Shown one piece after another: positions 3,042 through 45,477 of a stretch of 64,000 nt of DNA (positions within the stretch are counted from its first letter, which is position 1; each line of letters begins with the position of its first letter). Under the pieces are notes generated by a model. That model was not told the DNA's origin. It saw only the letters and a list, made by a program, of their open reading frames with translations, and did no database searches. Where the stretch lies: the NCBI GenBank assembly GCA_015493635.1, contig WGCU01000067.1:1-64000 (forward strand), read 5' to 3'. The translations under genes were made by a program, and so were the position numbers. This stretch comes from Spirochaetaceae bacterium. Lineage in GTDB: Bacteria > Spirochaetota > Spirochaetia > B11-G9.

Positions 3042-5159
3042 CTAGTTCAGTTTTAATACAAGCATCGTCTGATCATCAATTCTTGGAGTTCCATCCATAA
3101 ATGACGTTATGTCAGATAGTACGGCATCTGCTATTGCCTGCCCATTCAGCTTTGTTTTCCCCTTTATCAGCTTTTCCAGCCTTCCCAATGAATATGTTTC
3201 TCCCTGTCCGTTCTGCGCATCCATGATACCGTCTGTATAGAGAAAGAAGAGATCACCCCTGGAAGTTGACAGCAGTTCCTTTGAGTACTGCTCATCCGGT
3301 TCCACACCAATGGGCAGTCCCGGAGTATCTATCTGAGAAAAGCGGTTCCCGGATGCCGCATAGTACAAAAGAGGCGCATGGGCAGCATTTGAATAGGATA
3401 TTTTACCGGTTTTTTCATTAAGAAAGAGCACACTCATCGTTGCATACTGGTCAACACCGATCTTCTTCCGCAGGCCCTTGTTGATGATTCTAAGAAGATG
3501 GTCCGAATCTTTTGCTGAGGGGGCTACAATTCTGATCATCGTCCGGATCATTACCATGAGAAGAGCTGCAGGAATCCCCTTCCCTACAACATCACAGAGA
3601 ACAACCGCAGTTCTCCCTCCGGGCAGTTTAAAAACATCGTAGTAATCACTGCTTACCGCTTCCGCAGCCTGTGAAAAAACGCCGATGGAAAAGTTTGTTA
3701 TGTCAGGAAGTTTAGCCGGAAGCAGCTTGCTTTGAATGTTCGCTGCTATTTTCAATTCCCGCTCCATCTCCGTTTTCTGTACTGCCTCGGTAAAATTATA
3801 CAGGTTATCGATTGTAAGCGCCGCGTAATCACCAAAGGTCTTCATGTTAGCAAAGTCAACGTCGGTAAACTCTTCCTCAGGGTTCGTTTTTACAAGGGCA
3901 ATGGCACCAAGAACTCTCCGGGTTACAACAAGAGGTACTATAATCATGGAACGGATGTACTGGCTGCTGTTTTTGTCACTGTTTTGAACAAGATACTCGT
4001 TCCCCGCGGAATTCCTGATATAAACACCTTCTCCGCTCTGCATTACTGCACCGATAATTGTTTTTCCGGGAGTAATTTTATACTCCCTTAAAAAATCAAG
4101 CTGCCGTTCCGGAGTTTCCAAAACAACTTCAGGAACCTTGAAGGGGCAGGGGAATTGTCCCTCTACCGCCTGCAGGCGGATTACCGGAGAATCCTCGTCA
4201 ATCATGAAAACCGCGCCTGCGTCAACATTTGAATTCTTCATTATAGACTGCAGTATCTTTTCAAGAGCACGTTTTATATCGAGACCTTCTGACAGGGAAA
4301 CACTGACATCAATCATAAACTCAAGTACAGAGTCAAGTTTTTTCCAGAGTTCTGTCTTGAACGCATTGTAATGATGAGAAAGTTCTTCAAACTCATCACC
4401 CGATTTGATATTCAGTTCACGGGAAAAGTCTCCCCTTGAAACAGTTTTAATGGCGTCTTCAACAATACTGATCCTCATCGAAATTCGCCAGGCTATAATA
4501 TTAACAATAATTATTGAAAGAATAATACTTAAAATAACAATAACGATAACGAGAATATAACTATTCTGCAAGGTTTTCTCGGATTCAGTGGAAACATTTT
4601 TAACAAATGCATTGAGCTTTGTATTAAATGTTGCCGCCATGGCCATTACATTATCCTGATAGTTCTGAAGGGTAAGGACTTTTCCAATCAGATCGGAGGC
4701 TTCATCCTGGTGCTGTAAATACGCGTGCTGAATCCCTTCATTTCCAATTTCCTGAGCAAACCCATTTGCTATCATTTCATCAAGGTACTTGATTTCCGGA
4801 CTTATATACCAGTCTTTAAGCTGTTTCCACCAGCCGACTACATCTCTATATCCTTTGATAGACCTTTTCCCAAGGAATTTTGTTCCCTTCTCCCGGGAAA
4901 GAATATTGAGTTGTTTTTCAAACCCGGCAACATTACTCTGGAAATTATCCCGGAGTGTTACAATATTCTCGGCGGTTGAAAGGAACGTTTGTGCTGAATA
5001 ATTCAGTTTTTCCATACTCGAAGATATTTCATTAACCTGATACTCAACATTCTTGAGAGATACGGCAAAATTGGTAAAATAAAGAGAAACACCGATGGCT
5101 ACTGCGAAACCTATGGTTATAACAACTTCAACAAAGGTTAACTTATATTGTATTCTCAT
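3042..5159 (-). CDS. PP2C/SpoIIE-type serine phosphatase with HAMP and GAF domains (RsbU-like)
   Basis: N-terminal TM and sensor region, HAMP, GAF, and C-terminal SpoIIE (IAANIQSKLLPAKLPD, LCDVVGKGIPAALLM, FLYTDGIMDAQN). Confidence 0.85.
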   Translation of the reverse strand: MRIQYKLTFVEVVITIGFAVAIGVSLYFTNFAVSLKNVEYQVNEISSSMEKLNYSAQTFLSTAENIVTLRDNFQSNVAGFEKQLNILSREKGTKFLGKRSIKGYRDVVGWWKQLKDWYISPEIKYLDEMIANGFAQEIGNEGIQHAYLQHQDEASDLIGKVLTLQNYQDNVMAMAATFNTKLNAFVKNVSTESEKTLQNSYILVIVIVILSIILSIIIVNIIAWRISMRISIVEDAIKTVSRGDFSRELNIKSGDEFEELSHHYNAFKTELWKKLDSVLEFMIDVSVSLSEGLDIKRALEKILQSIMKNSNVDAGAVFMIDEDSPVIRLQAVEGQFPCPFKVPEVVLETPERQLDFLREYKITPGKTIIGAVMQSGEGVYIRNSAGNEYLVQNSDKNSSQYIRSMIIVPLVVTRRVLGAIALVKTNPEEEFTDVDFANMKTFGDYAALTIDNLYNFTEAVQKTEMERELKIAANIQSKLLPAKLPDITNFSIGVFSQAAEAVSSDYYDVFKLPGGRTAVVLCDVVGKGIPAALLMVMIRTMIRIVAPSAKDSDHLLRIINKGLRKKIGVDQYATMSVLFLNEKTGKISYSNAAHAPLLYYAASGNRFSQIDTPGLPIGVEPDEQYSKELLSTSRGDLFFLYTDGIMDAQNGQGETYSLGRLEKLIKGKTKLNGQAIADAVLSDITSFMDGTPRIDDQTMLVLKLN

Positions 5160-6479: not shown

Positions 6480-6508
6480 TTGACAAACACTTTTCCCGGT
6501 GCTACAGT
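6480..6508 (+). promoter_or_regulatory. Sigma70-type promoter of the tup-moa operon
   Basis: TTGACA (6480-6485), 17-bp spacer, TACAGT (6503-6508). Confidence 0.6.
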
Positions 6509-6519
6509 ATCTTAAAATT

Positions 6520-6684
6520 TACGACCAACTCCGAGCTGATTATTCTAAGGGGTATTATTCTAAGGGGTATTATTCTAAGGGGTATTATTCTATGAATCTT
6601 CAGCCGGGAAAATCTGTACAACCGGATTTTTCAGAGGGTTGTTCCGGAAACGGAGCTGCCTCCCGTGTTTGGAAAGGAGTCACC
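6520..6684 (+). promoter_or_regulatory. Candidate Moco/Tuco riboswitch leader
   Basis: GCCTCCCGTGTTTGGAAAGG at 6658-6677, just before the tupA ATG, closely matches the E. coli moaA leader element GCCTCCCGTATCTGGAAAGG. A TCCG-GAAA-CGGA hairpin precedes it, and the downstream operon is tungstate/Moco. The 5' boundary is uncertain. Confidence 0.65.
6541..6592 (+). repeat. 15-bp tandem repeat (TATTCTAAGGGGTAT) x3 plus partial fourth copy
   Basis: Three perfect copies at 6541-6555, 6556-6570 and 6571-6585, then TATTCTA. Confidence 0.95.
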
Positions 6685-7527
6685 ATGAAATTCTCTCAAA
6701 AACTATCCCAAAGGTTTGTTTTCTTCTTGTTCATGTTTCTTTTTCTGCTGCCGGTTATGATGTTTGCAGCAGGAAAGCATGAAGTTACATCCCGTCTCCG
6801 TCTTGCAACAACAACAAGTACCGACAACAGCGGCCTCTTAAACGTTCTCCTGCCCCCTTTTGAAAAAGAGACTGGCATGAAGGTAGATGTTATAGCTGTT
6901 GGAACTGGAAAAGCCATTACGCTTGGTAAGAATGGTGATGTTGATGTTATCATGGTACATGCCCGTGCCCGGGAGGACGCATTTGTTGCCGCTGGATACG
7001 GTGTAAACCGCAGCAATTTAATGCATAACGATTTTGTTATCATTGGTCCTGCTGACGATCCGGCCCGGATAAAGGGGTTGTCCAGTGCCGCCGAAGCGTT
7101 CAGGCGGATAGCAGCTTCTTCCTCTGACTTTGTATCCCGGGCAGATGACTCAGGAACTAATATAAAAGAAAAGTTTATCTGGAAAGAAGCAGCAATTACC
7201 CCGTCAGGGAAATGGTACAAAGAATCCGGTCAGGGAATGGGTGCTGTTATTACCATGGCAAACGACATGAAGGCTTATACTCTTTCTGACCGGGGAACAT
7301 TTTTGTCCATGAAAAGCAACATAGATCTTGTCGTTCTGGTCCAAGGGGATAAAAACCTCTACAATCCCTACGGAGTTATCGCGGTAAATCCGAAAAGACA
7401 TGACGGAATAAATTACAAAGGGGCAATGGCATTTATCAAATACCTTACCTCAAAAGAAGGACAGGATATTATCCGCTCTTACAAGAAGAACGGGGAACAG
7501 CTTTTCTATCCGGATGTACTAAAGTAG
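6685..7527 (+). CDS. tupA: Tungstate ABC transporter substrate-binding protein
   Basis: LATTTSTDNSGLLNVLLPPFEKETGMKVDVIAVGTGKA; signal peptide begins at ATG 6685 behind GGAAAGGAG, so the longer ORF start at 6499 is unlikely. Confidence 0.85.
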   Translation: MKFSQKLSQRFVFFLFMFLFLLPVMMFAAGKHEVTSRLRLATTTSTDNSGLLNVLLPPFEKETGMKVDVIAVGTGKAITLGKNGDVDVIMVHARAREDAFVAAGYGVNRSNLMHNDFVIIGPADDPARIKGLSSAAEAFRRIAASSSDFVSRADDSGTNIKEKFIWKEAAITPSGKWYKESGQGMGAVITMANDMKAYTLSDRGTFLSMKSNIDLVVLVQGDKNLYNPYGVIAVNPKRHDGINYKGAMAFIKYLTSKEGQDIIRSYKKNGEQLFYPDVLK

Positions 7528-32439: not shown

Positions 32440-32814
32440 ATGACGCAAACCGAGTTTCTTTTTCTGGAAATAAAGAAACTGTTCCAGGACTATTTTGATC
32501 ATCCATGGCTGATTAATGTTACCAGTTTCTCGGAAATAGGAACAATACGGGCATTTCTCTCGCTTTCTCCCCGTGAAGAAGACAGGGAATATCACCTTGT
32601 TCTGACAGGGATTCGGGCATTACGGAAATTTATAAGAATCCTACGCTCTACCGCAGTACCGGGGATTCATTATAACCCTCATGAAAACAAAGATCTGCTG
32701 CTGCTGAAAAAATGCATTATCTACACATTACCGGAAAATACAAAAAAGCTGGACTACCTGTCTGTTGAGTTCGAAAAGACCATTATGAGACAGAGTCTCC
32801 TTACACAGCTCTAA
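32440..32814 (+). CDS. Hypothetical protein (124 aa)
   Basis: Open ORF; its 3' end is copy 1 of the 59-bp direct repeat. Confidence 0.5.
   Translation: MTQTEFLFLEIKKLFQDYFDHPWLINVTSFSEIGTIRAFLSLSPREEDREYHLVLTGIRALRKFIRILRSTAVPGIHYNPHENKDLLLLKKCIIYTLPENTKKLDYLSVEFEKTIMRQSLLTQL
32746..32804. repeat. 59-bp direct repeat, copy 1
   Basis: AAGCTGGACTACCTGTCTGTTGAGTTCGAAAAGACCATTATGAGACAGAGTCTCCTTAC, identical to 35997-36055. Confidence 0.97.
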
Positions 32815-32821
32815 TGAATGG

Positions 32822-33253
32822 TTAAGGCAGCTGGACATTCAGGATGCTGCTGAAGAGGTAATAGACAACAACAATGGTTAGTCCTGATAAAACTGGTGTC
32901 TTCCAGTAAAATTTTTTATAAAGTACTGTCATGGTAAGTACCAGAAATATAAATGATGAGATAATGAAATGGAAATAATACAGTAGCAAAAGATAGCCCG
33001 GAAAAAAAGAAAGAATCAGCAGAAGATTCCTGTTAACTCCGTCCCCTTTTCCCCTGGATGAATTATTTTTCTTCAAACCTGAGAACAGGTAAATACTGTT
33101 TAATATCAGTAAAAGAGATGAAACAACACCAGGGAAGAGTCCGGGACTTAATGCAATAGTACCATGAGAGGGGAGAAGCAGACTGTACACGAGGCCTGCC
33201 GCTCCGCCAATAATGAGTACTACTGTAAAAATGAATTCTCCCCTTCTCATGAC
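32822..33253 (-). CDS. tctB: Tripartite tricarboxylate transporter small permease TctB
   Basis: Four TM segments, between tctC and the repeat; start chosen at MRRGEFIFTVV. Confidence 0.7.
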   Translation of the reverse strand, partial: VMRRGEFIFTVVLIIGGAAGLVYSLLLPSHGTIALSPGLFPGVVSSLLLILNSIYLFSGLKKNNSSRGKGDGVNRNLLLILSFFPGYLLLLYYFHFIISSFIFLVLTMTVLYKKFYWKTPVLSGLTIVVVYYLFSSILNVQLP

Positions 33254-33272
33254 ATTTTCCTTAAAAAGTGAA

Positions 33273-34298
33273 CTAATTTCTGGGTATGTTAAAATCGGCC
33301 GGAGATTTCTCGGCAACCCCGGCATCATAAAGCAGCCATGTAGTTGTTGATTTCCAAAGATCTATTTTTTTCCAAAAATCTTTACCAGTTTGACCCATGG
33401 TTTGAATATAATATTTGTCACTGAAATCTTTCCATTTTTGATCTTTAAGCGCATCCCGTGCGGCTTCTTCAAGTTTCTTGACTATAGGTACCGGTGTGTC
33501 TTTATTTACCAGTATCATGACCATAAGGCCCCACGGCAGCACTTTCGAAAACCGGGGCTCTACTTTCCCAAGTGCAGGGATCCCTTTGACCAGTGTGTCA
33601 TTGGAAAATGTAGCAAGTATTTTAACATTTCCGGCTTTGTAATCTCCCATAACAGATATAAGCGGATTAAAAGCGACTTCAACGTGTCCTCCCAGGAGAG
33701 CAGCTTTGACTTTACCTCCTCCTCCGAAAGGAACCATATTAAATTTGGAATTTGAGTACTCTGAAAAAAGTAGTCCTGCTACATGGCCGAGGGACCCGGG
33801 AGCTGCATATCCAGCGATAATTTTACCAGGTCTTGACTGGGCATCTGAAATAAGCTCCTGCAGGCTGTTCCAAGGTGCACTACTTTTGACATAACATGTC
33901 GGATTAAGGGTTGAAAGAAGAATTATAGGCTGGAAATCCGTTACATCAAGATCGGAAAGCCCCATTACATTCCATACTCCGGCAGCTTCTGTTGTAGTAA
34001 CAAGCAGCGTATATCCGTCTGCCGGTTTATTCTTCACATATTGGCTTCCAATGGCACCGCTTGCTCCCGGTTTATTTTGAATAATTATTTTTGAACCGCC
34101 CAGACGTTTCTCCATGAGAGGCATAAAATTACGCCCGATATTATCTGTTAATCCTCCGGCTCCCCAAGTGATAACCGCTTCGATATCCTTGTCGGGATAG
34201 TTTGCAGTTTTCTGTTCCTTTTTACCCATTGCAGTAAGGGTCATTGAAATAAAAAGAAGCATCACTGCGAAAAATACTCCATTTTTTACACGTACCAT
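33273..34298 (-). CDS. tctC: Tripartite tricarboxylate transporter substrate-binding protein TctC
   Basis: YPDKDIEAVITWGAGGLTDNIGR; GASGAIGSQYVKNKPADGYTLL. Confidence 0.88.
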   Translation of the reverse strand: MVRVKNGVFFAVMLLFISMTLTAMGKKEQKTANYPDKDIEAVITWGAGGLTDNIGRNFMPLMEKRLGGSKIIIQNKPGASGAIGSQYVKNKPADGYTLLVTTTEAAGVWNVMGLSDLDVTDFQPIILLSTLNPTCYVKSSAPWNSLQELISDAQSRPGKIIAGYAAPGSLGHVAGLLFSEYSNSKFNMVPFGGGGKVKAALLGGHVEVAFNPLISVMGDYKAGNVKILATFSNDTLVKGIPALGKVEPRFSKVLPWGLMVMILVNKDTPVPIVKKLEEAARDALKDQKWKDFSDKYYIQTMGQTGKDFWKKIDLWKSTTTWLLYDAGVAEKSPADFNIPRN

Positions 34299-34322
34299 AC
34301 AACCTCCATAAAAAAATTTATT

Positions 34323-35843
34323 TTAATCCTGCTTTTTAAAAGCAAGAATATTCCTTAATTTAAGGATGGATGATTTTTTCCATTCTTTGAAAACAGTAAT
34401 CTGGTCAAGTATCTGTAAAAGTGCAAACATAAAAATTACCATAGCAATTGGACGGGTCAATAATTTCCCTAAAATGTTTCCTTCTGAAATCATTGTAACC
34501 CTGCGAAGTGCTCCGTCAGCCATTGATCCCAGTACAAGACCAATCACTACAGGACCGATGGGGAATTTGATAGTTTTGAAAAAATAACCAAGAAATCCGG
34601 CGACAATCATTATGATAATATCAAAAGGGGAATTACGTATTGCATAAGCACCGACAAAGCATAAAACAGTTACAATAGGCATAAGTGATTCAGGACGTAT
34701 TGAAAGTATTTTCAGAAAGTATTTTGTTACAAATAATCCTATAAAAAGGAATAGTATATTGGATAGAAAAAGAAGAATTACAATAAACCAAAAAAGATCA
34801 GGAGTTTTTGTCATAAGCATAGGTCCGGGCTGTAGTCCATGAACAATGAAAGCTCCCATCATTACTGCAGTTACAGCATCGCCTGGTATACCCAAAGTTA
34901 ACAAGGGAATCATTGTTCCGCCTATCATTGCATTGTTCGCAACTTCTGGAGCTACGACACCCTCGTATGCTCCTTTACCGAAAGGTACATCCGGGTTTTT
35001 TACTGTTTTTTTTGCATTATCATAAGCAAGAAATGATGCAATGGTACTTCCTACGCCGGGAAGTGCTCCGATCCATGCACCTATTGCTGAGGATCTGAGT
35101 ATTACAGGAACCATCTTTCTAAAAGTACGCAATGTGGGAAGAACCTTTCCAAGCTGTCCGACTTTTTGATGTTTGTGGGAAGGGATACGCATTTGGTAGA
35201 TTATCTCGGAAAGTCCAAAAAAACCTATCAAACTCGGTATCAGGCCTATTCCTGACAGTAATTCCATACTTCCGAATGTAAAACGGGGAGTTCCATAGAA
35301 AGGATCCATTCCAACGGTAGAAAGCAGTAACCCAATTAACCCGGCAATAATGGCTTTCAAGAAAGAACCTTCCGACAAGTTCCCGATTGTAATTAATCCA
35401 AGGGTGATCAAACCAAGATATTCAAAAGGGCCAAAGCTGAGGGCAATTTTTGAAATAGGAGGAGCAAATGAAGCCAGAAAAAACAGACCAATAATACCCC
35501 CGATAAACGATCCGATCCTGGCCAAACCAAGTGCCATTGCCGCTTTGCCTTGTTTCGCAAGAGGATAACCGTCAAATCCAGTACAGATGGATGAAGGAGC
35601 ACCGGGAATATTGAGCAATACTGCCGAGATGGAACCCCCAAATACTCCTCCTGCATATACTCCTATTATCATTGCGAGCGCATAATTCATGGACCAGCTG
35701 AATGTTAATGATACCAAAAGTGCTGTAGCCATGGTAACTGACAGTCCAGGAAGGGCTCCTATAATTACTCCGGAAAAGCTTCCCAATGCTGTTAACAAGA
35801 TTACATTTATGTCCAATGCATTGCTTAAAGCGGCTCCAAACAT
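34323..35843 (-). CDS. tctA: Tripartite tricarboxylate transporter large permease TctA
   Basis: GVIIGALPGLSVTMATALLVSLTF; YAGGVFGGSISAVLLNIPGAPSSICTGFDGYPLAKQG. Confidence 0.92.
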   Translation of the reverse strand: MFGAALSNALDINVILLTALGSFSGVIIGALPGLSVTMATALLVSLTFSWSMNYALAMIIGVYAGGVFGGSISAVLLNIPGAPSSICTGFDGYPLAKQGKAAMALGLARIGSFIGGIIGLFFLASFAPPISKIALSFGPFEYLGLITLGLITIGNLSEGSFLKAIIAGLIGLLLSTVGMDPFYGTPRFTFGSMELLSGIGLIPSLIGFFGLSEIIYQMRIPSHKHQKVGQLGKVLPTLRTFRKMVPVILRSSAIGAWIGALPGVGSTIASFLAYDNAKKTVKNPDVPFGKGAYEGVVAPEVANNAMIGGTMIPLLTLGIPGDAVTAVMMGAFIVHGLQPGPMLMTKTPDLFWFIVILLFLSNILFLFIGLFVTKYFLKILSIRPESLMPIVTVLCFVGAYAIRNSPFDIIIMIVAGFLGYFFKTIKFPIGPVVIGLVLGSMADGALRRVTMISEGNILGKLLTRPIAMVIFMFALLQILDQITVFKEWKKSSILKLRNILAFKKQD

Positions 35844-35996
35844 TTCCAAACCCCCGATGACCAAGAGTATATCACAGATATCGTTTCTATGTATAGATAC
35901 GAATATCTGAAAAAAATAATCCGGCCAATCAACGCATTAATCAGGAACAATTGGAAAAAAACGAAGTCTAGGGGTTATTCCCATAGAAACAGCTAG

Positions 35997-36055
35997 AAGC
36001 TGGACTACCTGTCTGTTGAGTTCGAAAAGACCATTATGAGACAGAGTCTCCTTAC
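35997..36055. repeat. 59-bp direct repeat, copy 2
   Basis: Perfect match to 32746-32804; overlaps the stop codon of the thioredoxin-like gene. Confidence 0.97.
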
Positions 36056-36447
36056 GTAGCACCAATAAGGTCGAGAATACCCTGTTCACTGATTGCTCCC
36101 GCCTTGTATTCTTTAATGATGCCCTCTTCCACCACAACAAACGAAGGGGTACCCATGACACTGAGTTTCTGCGCAGTTTCCATATCCTTGGAAATATTAA
36201 TGCTGAAGATATCTCTCCGCTTCTTCTGCAGTGATTTTACAATGGGTGTTATTGCCTTGCAGGCTCTGCAGTTTGTGCTGTAAAAATAGAGGAGAACCCG
36301 GTCACCTTTCTTTATCCGCCTGCCGTACGCTCCTCCAAGAGAAGGTACTTTCTTTCCTTTTTTTAATTTCATGCGCAGAATCATTGATAACTGCAGTATG
36401 GTAAAACCACCGATAATTACCGCAATAATAATGCCGACTACAACCAT
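36052..36447 (-). CDS. Membrane-anchored thioredoxin-like protein
   Basis: N-terminal TM; VLLYFYSTNCRACKAITPIVKSL (CxxC); GTPSFVVVEEG. Confidence 0.75.
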   Translation of the reverse strand: MVVVGIIIAVIIGGFTILQLSMILRMKLKKGKKVPSLGGAYGRRIKKGDRVLLYFYSTNCRACKAITPIVKSLQKKRRDIFSINISKDMETAQKLSVMGTPSFVVVEEGIIKEYKAGAISEQGILDLIGAT

Positions 36448-37695
36448 TTACGTCTCCTGAGATAATTTGTCAAATCTCTCGCAGGTTACCTTCCGTGAAA
36501 AATAAAAACTGCTCAAGATAAGTATACTTGTTAAAATAAATATTACGGTATATCCAAACCGCTGTATGATAATCCCCGCAAATACAGGATATATAAGAAC
36601 GCCGATACTGCCAAGACCGGACAGACCGGTATATATCGCTCTGTTCTCATCTGTTGAAATCTCCAACAGCATTCCCGGCAGAGAAATCTGACGGGCAGCA
36701 AGAACAACACCGGAGAGAAGAAAAAGTGAAAGGTACAAGAGACGGTTACCGTGCAGCAGAAGGGCAAGAACGGGAAGAGCTGCTCCGGTAATAATGAAGA
36801 TGGAAAGGATCCCCTTGTACCGCTGGCTTTTTGAGGTAAACCGGTAGATTATGGTTGAAACGACCATTCCCGTTACCTGAAGCAGCAGGAAATTCCCTGT
36901 GTCACTGCTTGTAAGGCCAAAATTCTTTTTTGCATAGGCTATAAGAAAAGGAATGATTGCGAACCCCAGGCTCACAGTATTGGTGAGGTAGAGATAGTTC
37001 CGCAGGTTTTTATCACCAACAAAGGCATCTTTTAACAAACCAAACCGTTTCCGGTAGGATATTTTTTCTTTGACAATCATCGGCTTTTCTTTAATAACCC
37101 AGAAACCGATGGTTGCGGTTAACAACAATCCGCCGGCAATAAGAAAAAGAGCACTGTAATTTTTTGGATACGCGAGAAGCCGCAGTGTACGGCGGGCAAG
37201 AATAGCTGATGCAAGAATACCGATACTTGCGAGGGTCTGTTTGTATATAAAAAATTTCTTCCGGGACGCAGTATCAATTGCCCTCCCGAGGATATCGGTA
37301 TACGAAATACCGGCAAATGCTCCGGAAAAGGAAAAGATCGTCATAAGGATGAGTATGGAGGCAATAATGGCACTTCCAGACAACGCTCCCGCATAGGCAA
37401 GTATCGCGCCCATAAAAAGGAGTGCTCCAACCCTCAGGTAAATCCCTGTTATAAGAAACTTCCGCTTCCGTTCCCGGTGGGTAAGAAAGGAAGCAAAAAA
37501 GATCCCCATAAACCCGTTCCCCCCAACCATAACGGCAGTAAGGATACCAAGATGAACCGGTGTGCCCCCGGATTGAATAAGGAGCGTCGGGATAACAGTA
37601 TTAACATCCATAAATTTCTGGGCAAGCGCCAGAAACACCGCGTGCCAGATAAATGCTTTAAAGTTACGTTTTGAATAATCTGGATCTTCTATCAT
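36448..37695 (-). CDS. MFS transporter
   Basis: 12-TM pattern; last transporter gene in the deo/BMC transcription unit. Confidence 0.75.
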   Translation of the reverse strand: MIEDPDYSKRNFKAFIWHAVFLALAQKFMDVNTVIPTLLIQSGGTPVHLGILTAVMVGGNGFMGIFFASFLTHRERKRKFLITGIYLRVGALLFMGAILAYAGALSGSAIIASILILMTIFSFSGAFAGISYTDILGRAIDTASRKKFFIYKQTLASIGILASAILARRTLRLLAYPKNYSALFLIAGGLLLTATIGFWVIKEKPMIVKEKISYRKRFGLLKDAFVGDKNLRNYLYLTNTVSLGFAIIPFLIAYAKKNFGLTSSDTGNFLLLQVTGMVVSTIIYRFTSKSQRYKGILSIFIITGAALPVLALLLHGNRLLYLSLFLLSGVVLAARQISLPGMLLEISTDENRAIYTGLSGLGSIGVLIYPVFAGIIIQRFGYTVIFILTSILILSSFYFSRKVTCERFDKLSQET

Positions 37696-37702
37696 CCTGC
37701 CA

Positions 37703-38878
37703 TTATATAAATGTTTCCCCTTTTGGAAACCCTTCCAGATTAAAAAAACGGGTTATTGACCGGGCTATATCAGAAAACTGATTTCTTATTCCCAGGGAAG
37801 TTCCCATTTTCCCCTTCCGGTAACTGAGAAGCGGTACGTGCTCTCTCGTATGATCAGTCCCCCTGAACGTAGGATCACAACCGTGATCGGCGGTTACAAT
37901 AAGAAGGTCATCCTCTCCAAGCATCTTCAATAACCGTCCAAGATGCGTATCAACAGCCTGTACAGCGTCATGGTATCCCTGCGGGTCTCTGCGGTGGCCG
38001 TAGTTCATATCGGTATCCACATAATTTACAAAGATAAACTCTTTTTTATCTGTCTTTTTACCCAGGAGCGCTTCTGTCCGTTTGATACAGGCAGAATTAC
38101 CCTTGTCGTGGTAACTGTCATTGATACCCCTTTCACCGAAAATATCACCTATCTTTCCGACTCCCACCGTGTTGACATCCCGCGCTTTTAGAAAATCGAA
38201 GAGGCTTTCCCCGTCGTATGCTATGGAAAAATCTTTTCTCCCGCTTGTCCGGGTAAAGTTCCCCGGTTCACCAATAAACGGACGGGCTATTACTCTGCCG
38301 ACCTGATATTCATCACAGAGATCCCGGGCAGCCGCACACATACGGTACAGCTCTTCCACGGGAATAACATCTTCATGAGCCGCTATCTGGAAGACAGAAT
38401 CCCCTGAGGTATAAATAATCGGTTTCCCTGTTTTAATATGTTCAGCTCCCAGTTCTTCAATTATTACCGTTCCGGAAGCGGCCTTGTTTCCCAGCACACC
38501 GCGGCCTATTTTTTTAGAAAAATCCCGAACCAGTTTTTCAGGGAAAGAAGGATACTCAGAGGGGAAAACAGTAAACGGCTTCGTCAGTTCAAGACCGGCA
38601 ATCTCCCAGTGACCGGTGGTCGTATCTTTCCCGGGGGATTTTTCCTTCATAACACCGAAAGACGCCCGCGGTTTATCCGCAGGAGCACATCCGGGAAGTA
38701 TATTCCCCAGCAGCTTAGAAGCATTACCCAGCCCCATTTCCTGCAGATAAGGCCATTTTGCTCCGCCGACTGTTTCACAGATATGCAGTGCCGTATTTGC
38801 ACCCTGATCTCCGTATTTCTCCGCGTCGGGAAGATATCCAATTCCGAAACTGTCTATAACAATAATTACTGCTCTCAT
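37703..38878 (-). CDS. deoB: Phosphopentomutase
   Basis: VIDSFGIGYLPDAEKYGDQGANT; GKDTTTGHWEIAG; DHGCDPTFRGTDHTREHVPLL. Confidence 0.93.
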   Translation of the reverse strand: MRAVIIVIDSFGIGYLPDAEKYGDQGANTALHICETVGGAKWPYLQEMGLGNASKLLGNILPGCAPADKPRASFGVMKEKSPGKDTTTGHWEIAGLELTKPFTVFPSEYPSFPEKLVRDFSKKIGRGVLGNKAASGTVIIEELGAEHIKTGKPIIYTSGDSVFQIAAHEDVIPVEELYRMCAAARDLCDEYQVGRVIARPFIGEPGNFTRTSGRKDFSIAYDGESLFDFLKARDVNTVGVGKIGDIFGERGINDSYHDKGNSACIKRTEALLGKKTDKKEFIFVNYVDTDMNYGHRRDPQGYHDAVQAVDTHLGRLLKMLGEDDLLIVTADHGCDPTFRGTDHTREHVPLLSYRKGKMGTSLGIRNQFSDIARSITRFFNLEGFPKGETFI

Positions 38879-38887
38879 TTTCCTCTC

Positions 38888-39697
38888 CTAATATCCAGAA
38901 GTGATTTCCTCACCCTTAACAATCTTTACGCCGCCGCTTGTTCCAAGACGGGTAGCACCTGCTTCTATCATGGCAACAGCATCCGCAAAGGTCCGGACAC
39001 CGCCGGCAGCTTTCACTCCCATTTTCGGACCAACCGTCCGGCGCATAAGCATTACATCTTTAACGGTTGCTCCCCCTGTTGAAAACCCGGTTGAGGTCTT
39101 TACGTAATCGGCACCCGCTTTTTTGACAATTTCACAGGCGAGCACCTTTTCCTCATCCGTCAGCAGTGCCGTTTCTATAATAACCTTCAAAAGAGCCCGC
39201 TGTCCGCATGCCCGTACAACCCACTTTATATCCTCTTCAACCGTTTTCAAGTCACGTTCTTTCAGGGCGCCGATATTCATGACCATATCTACTTCATCTG
39301 CCCCCTCTTCTATCGCATGCCGGGCTTCAAACCCCTTGCTCCGGCCGCTCATGGCGCCTAAAGGGAATCCGACAACAACACATACCTTGACACCGCTTCC
39401 CCGCAGGTTTTTCGCGCACCGGGTTGTCCAGGTTGTATTAACACAAACTGAGTGAAACTGATACTCCCTCGCTTCGCTGCACAGCTTGTCGATTTGCGGA
39501 CCCGTCGCATCCGCCTTCAGCAGCGTATGATCAATGTACTTTGCCACATCTGCCGGCACAAGAACCTTGTTATTATTTTCTGAAGAAGCAGTCTCTAAAA
39601 AAGCAGGTTGAGGAGTTTCAACAGTACCTTCCGCTGAATCTTTCAACTGCGCCATTACTTCACGGGTTATTTTTTCTATTAATGCTTTATCATCCAT
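38888..39697 (-). CDS. deoC: Deoxyribose-phosphate aldolase with N-terminal BMC encapsulation-type helix
   Basis: [42 protein letters not shown]-terminal [19 protein letters not shown] amphipathic helix plus linker. Confidence 0.93.
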
Positions 39698-39698
39698 T

Positions 39699-40202
39699 TT
39701 ATATCCTGTTTCCTCTCTCTACTGCCATCATTTTATTTATACGTGCCCAGTGTCTGCCGCCTTCAAACCGTGTTTCGAGCCATACTTTTACCATGCTGCA
39801 TAATGCTTCAGGCTCATGGAGGGGGCCGCCGAGGGTCAGAACGTTGGCATTATTATGCTTTCTGCTGTTTTCAATCGTACGCATATCGTAGCAAAGCGCA
39901 GCACGGATACCCCGTACCTTGTTGCATACCATGGAGGATCCGATTCCGGCACCGTCTATCATGATACCTCTGTCAGCTTCTCCCCGGGCTACATACCGTG
40001 CCACCTTCTCAGCATAATTGGGATAGTCGACACTTTCTTTTGAGAAGGTTCCGATATCCGTCACCGTGTAGCCCAGAACTTCCAGATACTTCCTCAGGAT
40101 CTCTTTTGCCACAAAACCGCCATGATCTGAACCGATAACAACCTTTGAAACCGTATCTTTCTCATTATGGACAGAGAAATCATCCTCTTTTATCATTATC
40201 AT
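39699..40202 (-). CDS. rpiB: Ribose-5-phosphate isomerase B (RpiB/LacAB)
   Basis: [53 protein letters not shown]. Confidence 0.88.
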
Positions 40203-40473
40203 TCTCCTTGTTTTCTATACTGTCCACTATCCCGGTAATAACAGTCCGGACCGGCTGTCCGGTTAGCCCGAGTATGATACCCGCGGAACCGCCTTCATCA
40301 AGGACAAGAACAGTATCACCTTTACCGGCCTGCACCGTATCGACAGCGACAACTGGTTTCGCTGTAAAGCTTCCATCCGGTCGTACCGGTCTGACGAGCA
40401 GGAGTTTATGCCCCTCAAGGGACCTTATTTTTACCGTTGAAACAACCGGACCAAGCACCCGCGCAAGAATCAT
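40180..40473 (-). CDS. BMC-P (EutN/CcmL family) vertex protein 1
   Basis: MILARVLGPVVSTVKIRSLEGHKLLLVRPV; VAVDTVQAGKGDTVLVLDEGGSAG. Confidence 0.9.
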   Translation of the reverse strand: MILARVLGPVVSTVKIRSLEGHKLLLVRPVRPDGSFTAKPVVAVDTVQAGKGDTVLVLDEGGSAGIILGLTGQPVRTVITGIVDSIENKENDNDKRG

Positions 40474-40736
40474 AAGCCTTCCGCCTTGTCTATGATACCG
40501 ACAATCGTTGCGTCCGAGGGATTAAACCAGTTTTCCAGTGCAAGTGCGGCTTCCCTGCCCCCTTCATAGAGAACCATATCTCCCGTACCGGCCTGAACAG
40601 TATCACAGGCAACAAGCGGTATGCCGGTTTCCTGGTACGCTTCATCCAGAGGCTGAAGTAATAAAAGCGGTACCCCGTACAGCGCGTCAGCTTTATTACT
40701 GCATACTACCGAACCAATAATCTGCCCAATTCTCAT
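40470..40736 (-). CDS. BMC-P (EutN/CcmL family) vertex protein 2
   Basis: MRIGQIIGSVVCSNKADALYGVPLLLLQPL; ACDTVQAGTGDMVLYEGGREA. Confidence 0.9.
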   Translation of the reverse strand: MRIGQIIGSVVCSNKADALYGVPLLLLQPLDEAYQETGIPLVACDTVQAGTGDMVLYEGGREAALALENWFNPSDATIVGIIDKAEGL

Positions 40737-40748
40737 TTCATCCTCTTT

Positions 40749-42167
40749 CTACACAATTCTAAAATAATCAATTAAGGCACAGCGCCGTTCACGGGTAAAT
40801 GTCCGGGCACGGGTAAATCCTTCGCCCGTTGGACTTGCAATGGTAAAAGAAGTAAACCCCGCTCCGCCGAATCCCATTCCGTTAAAATTTGATCCGTTCT
40901 TTACAAAAAGAGAACAATTTACAAGCTTTGCCATCTTCGAAAGTTTCGCAATATTAAGGGAATGCATGGAAGCCGAGTGTCTGAAACCATGTTCCAGATC
41001 AAGCGCCAGATCAATGGCATCATCCACCGTATCAACCCTGACCAGAGGAATAACAGGCATAAGCTGCTCGGTCCAGAGCAGAGGATGAGAAGCATCAACC
41101 TCCAGAAGAAGAATTTTGGTTTCTTCGGGAATTTTCAGTCCTATCTCAGCAGCAATATAGTCAGCACTTTTACCCACATACGTCTTGTTCGGAGCGCCTT
41201 CATATCCCTTTCTGCCGGGATCCGCTATAACAAGATCGGTCACCTTCTTTATCTGGTCTCCTGTCAGTTCAAAAGCGCCTGCTTTTACCATTTCACTCTT
41301 CAACCGGTCGGCAACAGACCGTACAACAACAATTTCTTTCTCGCATATACATACAATATTGTTATCAAAGCCGGCTCCGTTAACCAGATCACGGGCAGCT
41401 TTTTCAATATCAGCCGTTTCATCAACAACCGACGGAGGATTTCCGGGACCCGCGGCAATAACCTTCTTTGATGTTTTCATTGCCTGCCCGACAACCCCCG
41501 GGCCTCCGGTTACCGTAAGAAGATTTATGAGAGGATGCTGCATCATTTCCTTTCCCGTTTCAATAGTCGGACTTTTAACGGTCGTAATGCAGTTTGCCGG
41601 TCCTCCAGCTTTTTGTATTGCTTCATTCAGCAGACCGACCGTGTAAACGGAAACATCTTTGGCAGCAGGATGCGCGTTAAAAACAACAACGTTCCCCGAG
41701 GAAATCATACTGATGGAATTGTTGATAATGGTTTCTGTAGGATTGGTACTGGGAGCGATAGCTCCAATTACTCCGTAGGGTGCACGCTCTGTGAGGGTTA
41801 AACCGTGATCATCGGAGAACACGGAAGGCTGCACATCTTCAACCCCCGGAGTCATATGCGCCGCAAGAAGATTCTTCTTGATTTTATCACCTGCTTTGCC
41901 CATGCCTGTTTCTTTAACCGCTCGTTCTGCCAGTTGATTGACATTTCCCTCCACCGTCCGGCGCATCCCTGCAATCATTGCTCTCCTGATCTCAAGTGAT
42001 ACTTCAGAAAATACTTTAAAAGCCTTCGATGCTTCATAAACAGCTTTGTCCATGGTATCAAACACTCCCGGTATAGTAAAACTACCGGAAGATGAGTCAG
42101 TAGAAACTGAATATTCTTCTACAACCTTCTCGACAATACCTTTTATTATCTTTTCATCAATTTCCAT
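40749..42167 (-). CDS. CoA-acylating aldehyde dehydrogenase (PduP/EutE-like) with N-terminal encapsulation helix
   Basis: GAIAPSTNPTETIINN, TGGPGVVGQAMKTSKK, FDNNIVCICEKEIVVV; N-terminal MEIDEKIIKGIVEKVVEEYS. Confidence 0.9.
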   Translation of the reverse strand: MEIDEKIIKGIVEKVVEEYSVSTDSSSGSFTIPGVFDTMDKAVYEASKAFKVFSEVSLEIRRAMIAGMRRTVEGNVNQLAERAVKETGMGKAGDKIKKNLLAAHMTPGVEDVQPSVFSDDHGLTLTERAPYGVIGAIAPSTNPTETIINNSISMISSGNVVVFNAHPAAKDVSVYTVGLLNEAIQKAGGPANCITTVKSPTIETGKEMMQHPLINLLTVTGGPGVVGQAMKTSKKVIAAGPGNPPSVVDETADIEKAARDLVNGAGFDNNIVCICEKEIVVVRSVADRLKSEMVKAGAFELTGDQIKKVTDLVIADPGRKGYEGAPNKTYVGKSADYIAAEIGLKIPEETKILLLEVDASHPLLWTEQLMPVIPLVRVDTVDDAIDLALDLEHGFRHSASMHSLNIAKLSKMAKLVNCSLFVKNGSNFNGMGFGGAGFTSFTIASPTGEGFTRARTFTRERRCALIDYFRIV

Positions 42168-42714
42168 ATATAAATCCTCTCATATCAGCATGAGGTCCGG
42201 GAATAACAACTTTCCGGTACAACTGCCCTTTATCCTCCGCAAAGGGAGCGGCAAGGTTCATTGCGTCTTCAATATCTCCCAGATCGCCTGAAAAGGTAAC
42301 AACAGCTTTACCGCCGTATTCATTTCCTGACAGAATGCCGAGGACTGTGATCCCTGTTGCCTTAACAGCCATATCCGCGGCCTCAATACCGGTGGTAATG
42401 GAAAGCGTTTCAAGGATTCCGAGGGATTCAGGTGACGCAGTAACTTCCCTCATCAGGAGAGCATTGACGATCTGTTCATCGATATTTTTCAGAAAAAGCT
42501 GATCAATCAACGAACGCTGACCTATATCAATCCCCCGTTCCATTGCGTATTCTACGGAAGCAACATCCCCTTCAATAATAATGAGGTACTTTCCGGGATT
42601 AACCGGTTCTGCCCTTACTATTGAAACCGGCGCGGCTTTCACCATTCCATCAAGTGCCAGGAGACCATCGGCAATACTGCTAAGCTCTAGAATTCCCAAT
42701 ACGTGTATGTTCAT
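42157..42714 (-). CDS. BMC-T shell protein (PduT-like)
   Basis: Two BMC domains: LGILELSSIADGLLALDGMVKAA and LGILETLSITTGIEAADMAVKATG. Confidence 0.88.
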   Translation of the reverse strand: MNIHVLGILELSSIADGLLALDGMVKAAPVSIVRAEPVNPGKYLIIIEGDVASVEYAMERGIDIGQRSLIDQLFLKNIDEQIVNALLMREVTASPESLGILETLSITTGIEAADMAVKATGITVLGILSGNEYGGKAVVTFSGDLGDIEDAMNLAAPFAEDKGQLYRKVVIPGPHADMRGFIYGN

Positions 42715-44697: not shown

Positions 44698-45477
44698 ATG
44701 ATACGAAAACAGGAAGAACGGCTTCAAACCATCCTCAATGTCCTCAAACTGACTAATCCGGCAACCATTAACAAACTGGCCCGGACGCTGGAGGTTTCCC
44801 ACATGACGATACGGCGGGACATTGAAATACTTGAACGCGAGCAGAAGGTTGAAGTGTTCCATGGCGGTGTCATGCTTCTAAACTCCGGAGAACCTGAATA
44901 TATGAGAGAGTATTCTCTCGCTGACGCTACGTCGATTATGCGTGAAGAAAAAAAGAGGATTGGTTTAAAAGCGGCATCCCTCATTGAAAATGACAGTTCA
45001 ATAATACTTGATACGGGCTCAACCACGGAACTCATTGCCAGATCTCTTTCCACGGACCTTTCCATAACCATAATTTGTTATACGCTTAACGTTCTTATAA
45101 ACGTGTCAAAACTAAAAGACGTGTATATAATATTTCCCGGCGGACACTTTCATAAAAATACATTGATGTTTGAAAGTGCTGAAGGGCTTGAGCTTATCAG
45201 AAAAAACAGAGCCTCAGTCGCATTTGTTTCCGCCAGCGGGATAAGCCTTTCCATGGGAGTTACCTGTTCCAACAGTTATGAGCGGGAGGTAAAAAATTCA
45301 ATTATGAAATCTTCTCTTAAAAAAATACTTGTTGCGGATTCTTCCAAATTTGATGTTGTCCACAGCACCTACTTTGCGGATATCAATAATTTTAACGAGA
45401 TTATCACTGATAAGGGAATCCCTGACCAGTACAGGGAATACTGTTTAGAACACCATATAAAACTCTCACTTGTATAG
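44698..45477 (+). CDS. DeoR-family transcriptional regulator
   Basis: HTH RLQTILNVLKLTNPATINKLARTLEVSHMTIRRDIEILE; sugar-phosphate sensor domain DTGSTTELIARSL. Confidence 0.88.
   Translation: MIRKQEERLQTILNVLKLTNPATINKLARTLEVSHMTIRRDIEILEREQKVEVFHGGVMLLNSGEPEYMREYSLADATSIMREEKKRIGLKAASLIENDSSIILDTGSTTELIARSLSTDLSITIICYTLNVLINVSKLKDVYIIFPGGHFHKNTLMFESAEGLELIRKNRASVAFVSASGISLSMGVTCSNSYEREVKNSIMKSSLKKILVADSSKFDVVHSTYFADINNFNEIITDKGIPDQYREYCLEHHIKLSLV

Follow-up and report, generated by a model that had tools for sequence, protein, structure and literature searches.

How did a tripartite tricarboxylate transporter (tct) operon come to lie between two perfect copies of a 59-bp sequence, the first of which is the 3' end of a neighbouring gene? 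The locus sits in a 64,000-nt window (the whole stretch of DNA that was analysed) from a 3.27-Mb Spirochaete MAG. A first-pass annotation, made from the letters alone, had described it as a cassette holding only tctB, tctC and tctA, apparently inserted at the 3' end of a 124-aa gene, that end being duplicated or replaced and the gene preserved, and with no recombinase in sight. The features on which the argument turns are these:

32440-32814, plus strand: 124-aa gene whose 3' end was the target, ending ...SLLTQL* after the insertion
32746-32804, plus strand: repeat copy 1, 59 bp; its 5' side is native and continues the conserved 124-aa gene
32805-35996, no strand assigned: unique segment of 3192 bp that was inserted; it has no terminal inverted repeats and is missing from the site in G004, G005 and G006
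32822-33328, minus strand: tctB (PF07331, E=5.7e-15)
33273-34298, minus strand: tctC, solute-binding receptor (PF03401, E=2.5e-27)
34323-35864, minus strand: tctA, large membrane subunit, start codon uncertain (PF01970, E=5.5e-152)
35997-36055, plus strand: repeat copy 2, 59 bp; its 3' side is native, and it holds the stop codon of the thioredoxin-like gene
36056-36059, plus strand: GTAG, which, joined to one repeat copy, completes the ancestral end ...SLLT* of the 124-aa gene
36052-36447, minus strand: thioredoxin-like gene, 131 aa (PF00085, E=2e-11), paired convergently with the 124-aa gene where the site is empty

The anatomy given by the first-pass annotation was borne out. The two repeat copies are identical and start 3251 bp apart, and a repeat of that kind arose in none of 100 shuffles of the window. 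Pfam profiles identified the enclosed reading frames as members of the TctA, TctB and TctC families, each above the curated cut-offs, and these three genes, all on the minus strand, are the entire gene content of the 3192-bp segment. The gene ends are likewise as described: copy 1 closes the 124-aa gene with ...SLLTQL*, and copy 2 followed by GTAG would close it with ...SLLT*. That the TAA stop (36052-36054) of the convergent thioredoxin-like gene falls within copy 2 had escaped the annotation. The 124-aa gene itself matched no family in Pfam or NCBIfam.

As the operon is now placed, it is co-directional with, and downstream of, a deoC-deoB-MFS-trx series. The minus-strand region 36448-42714 forms a bacterial microcompartment cluster that comprises a BMC shell protein, two EutN/CcmL pentamer proteins, an aldehyde dehydrogenase and an RpiB-like isomerase along with deoC, a deoB-like phosphopentomutase and an MFS transporter, and it is accompanied by a DeoR-type regulator at 44698-45477. 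Upstream of the 124-aa gene, a nucleotidyltransferase gene (MNT-type, PF18765/PF01909; 31788-32377, minus strand) has decayed into several frames and possibly represents a broken toxin-antitoxin pair of the nucleotidyltransferase type.

The repeat belongs to this locus and to no other. It has only two copies in the genome, and a genome-wide search for a third at E<=0.001 returned none; a repeat scattered through the genome, which the first-pass annotation had named as grounds for giving up its reading, is thus not what we observed. A query spanning the left edge of the repeat found no match longer than 17 nt elsewhere in the genome, similarity between the cassette ends and the native flanks did not exceed that of shuffled controls, and the repeat edges are abrupt. 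Repeats were also scanned in a 691-kb sample of genome stretches (21% of the genome), where the 59-bp repeat was the sole isolated pair of exact repeats of at least 50 bp lying more than 200 bp apart, setting aside a block of several exact matches with one common spacing on contig C7 that is probably paralogous sequence. This 21% of the genome yielded no second clear example of such an insertion. The remaining repeats in the sample were an 81-bp pair, a 29-bp pair and short tandem arrays. The 81-bp exact direct repeat (L074:4669-4749 and 4858-4938, contig C1, 189 bp apart) adjoins an apparent tRNA gene on the minus strand, and the 29-bp exact direct repeat (L112, contig C92, 27323; 1401 bp apart) has a tyrosine recombinase gene ~2 kb away. 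Within the window, a tandem array with the 15-bp unit ATTATTCTAAGGGGT occupies 6539-6592, near the start of a 342-aa ORF (6499-7527).

That the operon is the newcomer follows from comparison with related genomes. Homologues of the 124-aa gene, 39-43% identical, occur in G004, G005 and G006, which belong to a sister genus of the same family, and the thioredoxin-like gene has counterparts in G003 (80% identity) and in G002, G004 and G006 (55-56%). In G004 and G006 the two homologues are adjacent and convergent, with coding ends that overlap by 8 and 4 nt, and in G005 the 124-aa gene homologue faces an MFS gene, with an apparent thioredoxin-like remnant between them. None of these three genomes has tct genes at this site. 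When the flanks of the window are joined through a single repeat, the 124-aa gene product ends in ...RQSLLT*, the thioredoxin-like protein is intact and the two coding ends overlap by 8 nt; since joining the flanks restores the gene pair, the outer flanks and a single repeat represent the ancestral state, to which the event added 3251 bp. Neither neighbour was lost: the 124-aa gene gained only two residues (QL), and the thioredoxin-like gene retained its stop in copy 2. What comes after the thioredoxin-like gene in G003 is an atpB-like gene, whereas the ATP-synthase A gene of the window lies ~11 kb from the site, so the junction is variable in the family. Across genera, then, the empty-site comparison suggested by the first-pass annotation upholds its claim of an insertion that duplicated the end of the 124-aa gene and preserved the gene. 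Together with the anatomy, it shows that the tctACB operon was inserted in this lineage at the convergent junction of the 124-aa and thioredoxin-like genes, so that the last 59 bp of the junction now stand on either side of it.

As to where the operon came from, no close donor emerged among 393 genomes of the phylum (E<=1e-60), and no plasmid or phage matches were found. G008 and G005 came nearest: the closest TctC proteins are those of G005 (71%) and G008 (66%), and the G008 TctA is 79% identical. The G008 operon has the same A-C-B order as that of the window, with a LacI-type regulator on one side and an aroA-like gene on the other, and direct repeats are absent around it, so we do not take the cassette for a conserved mobile unit. 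Judging from these homologues, we are dealing with a patchily distributed Spirochaete operon. The first-pass annotation had also proposed a GC and codon comparison, and this gave no sign of foreign origin. Of 153 segments of the window, the cassette did stand out as the most atypical; when set beside 369 segments from the genome at large, however, it fell only at the 74th percentile for tetranucleotides, the 25th for GC and the 71st for synonymous codon use. Foreign composition was therefore dropped as a candidate, the cassette being ordinary against the 691-kb genome sample and the window-only contrast misleading. As composition does not set the operon apart, movement from another position within the same genome is also possible.

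What carried the operon in is harder to say, and the search for mobile-element machinery bears directly on the alternatives. Neither of the hallmarks of a transposon, terminal inverted repeats and a transposase, is present at the cassette, which consists of TctA, TctB and TctC only. An integron cassette would be expected to carry an attC site with a stable bottom-strand fold; here the fold energy equals that of shuffles, and the repeat is coding sequence that is native to the site. The idea of a hairpin or an attC-like structure was considered and rejected: the repeat looked hairpin-like when folded with RNA parameters, but shuffles did about equally well, as did 15% of the 59-mers in the window. 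The window has no tRNA, no Rfam family was found at 31-38 kb, and the statement that no recombinase is visible at the cassette stands, there being no integrase (tyrosine recombinase) match on this contig. Genomic islands of one familiar type lodge at a gene's 3' end and restore it, and this resemblance, together with nine tyrosine-recombinase matches elsewhere in the genome, would suit site-specific integration into the end of a protein-coding gene by a cis-mobilisable element that used the 59-bp repeats as att sites, with an integrase encoded elsewhere. We nevertheless consider such an origin unlikely. The genome contains no third att-like copy, a 30-bp core of the repeat had no match in viral contigs, these searches revealed no integrase-bearing element that shares the core, the related G008 operon has no repeats, and the repeat folds no more stably than its shuffles. 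The earlier description of a target-preserving integration thus stands for the insertion and the preservation of the gene, and not for integration of the att type. Mobilisation in trans, one of the two routes that the annotation drew from the missing integrase, and present-day excision are conjectures, and insertion with long target duplication would account for the anatomy with no integrase at all. To an assembly artefact, i.e. a false join or unresolved strain variants, we give hardly any credence, even though the source is a 101-contig draft genome: several contig ends overlap other contigs by 148-149 nt, which puts the final assembly word probably far above 59, and the outer flanks, once joined, give the native pair of genes intact.

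This leaves two readings which the perfect, abrupt 59-bp repeat fits equally. In one, a 3.25-kb circle carrying tct and one copy of the 59 bp recombined homologously with the chromosomal copy in a single crossover of the Campbell type, which would yield exactly repeat-tct-repeat with two identical repeats. For transposed plant genes, a circle that forms and re-inserts by way of the repeats on its flanks has been proposed (PMC2869330). Yet efficient homologous recombination usually calls for more than 59 bp, there is no third 59-bp copy in the genome, and an earlier molecule joining the gene end to tct would be needed, of which relatives showed no example. We regard the single crossover as less likely than not, but as a serious rival. 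The other reading, a recombinase-free insertion with long target duplication, is in our judgement the best description, and we give it about an even chance, its mechanism being one that we infer. It is preferred because it requires no pre-existing link between the gene end and tct, and it agrees with the empty site in G004, G006 and G005 and with an exact flanking repeat of 59 bp present in just two copies. Against it, this is a single event, a circle carrying the 59 bp would leave identical anatomy and, as the donor sequence was not found, neither junction microhomology nor template switching is visible.

Insertion with long target duplication could proceed in two ways. A break with staggered ends of roughly 59 nt might be filled in on both sides while capturing a 3.2-kb tct fragment; alternatively, replication or repair synthesis might jump from the end of the repeat to a tct template and then return to where the repeat begins. 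Either route would leave direct repeats that are perfect, sharply bounded and of no fixed length, and the operon could be lost again through ordinary recombination between the repeats. That these Spirochaetes possess a recombinase-independent process, or a novel trans-acting one, which places ordinary metabolic operons where genes converge, duplicating a long stretch of target and sparing both neighbours, seems to us very unlikely.

Insertion with long target duplication is a kind of gene movement that is already described, if poorly understood. Nobusato et al. (2000) reportedly described it in Helicobacter pylori, where most cases concerned restriction-modification genes. Comparisons of H. 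pylori strains have revealed long target duplications of variable length around inserted gene blocks, in most cases restriction-modification systems (PMC3031569, PMC1643837, PMC4978471). As there, the present locus combines a gene block, a site that is empty in relatives and a long direct repeat of the target; here, by contrast, the block is a transporter operon, the host a Spirochaete and the comparison one across genera rather than strains. With other tripartite tricarboxylate transporter operons it shares the full set of TctA, TctB and TctC families, and differs in its position, its flanking repeat and the lack of an adjacent regulator such as the LacI-type gene in G008. Cis-mobilisable elements with attL and attR and genomic islands at 3' gene ends also have direct repeats and keep the target gene intact; in our case, no third core copy, linked integrase-bearing element or tRNA accompanies them. 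Either way, the locus offers a clean example of a metabolic operon that entered a genome without visible mobile-element machinery, with neither neighbour broken and with relatives that lack the insert. On its sequence anatomy, it would be best filed as another instance of the H. pylori pattern and not as a new kind of mobile element; the pattern has mainly involved restriction-modification genes, and here it takes in a transporter operon from another phylum.
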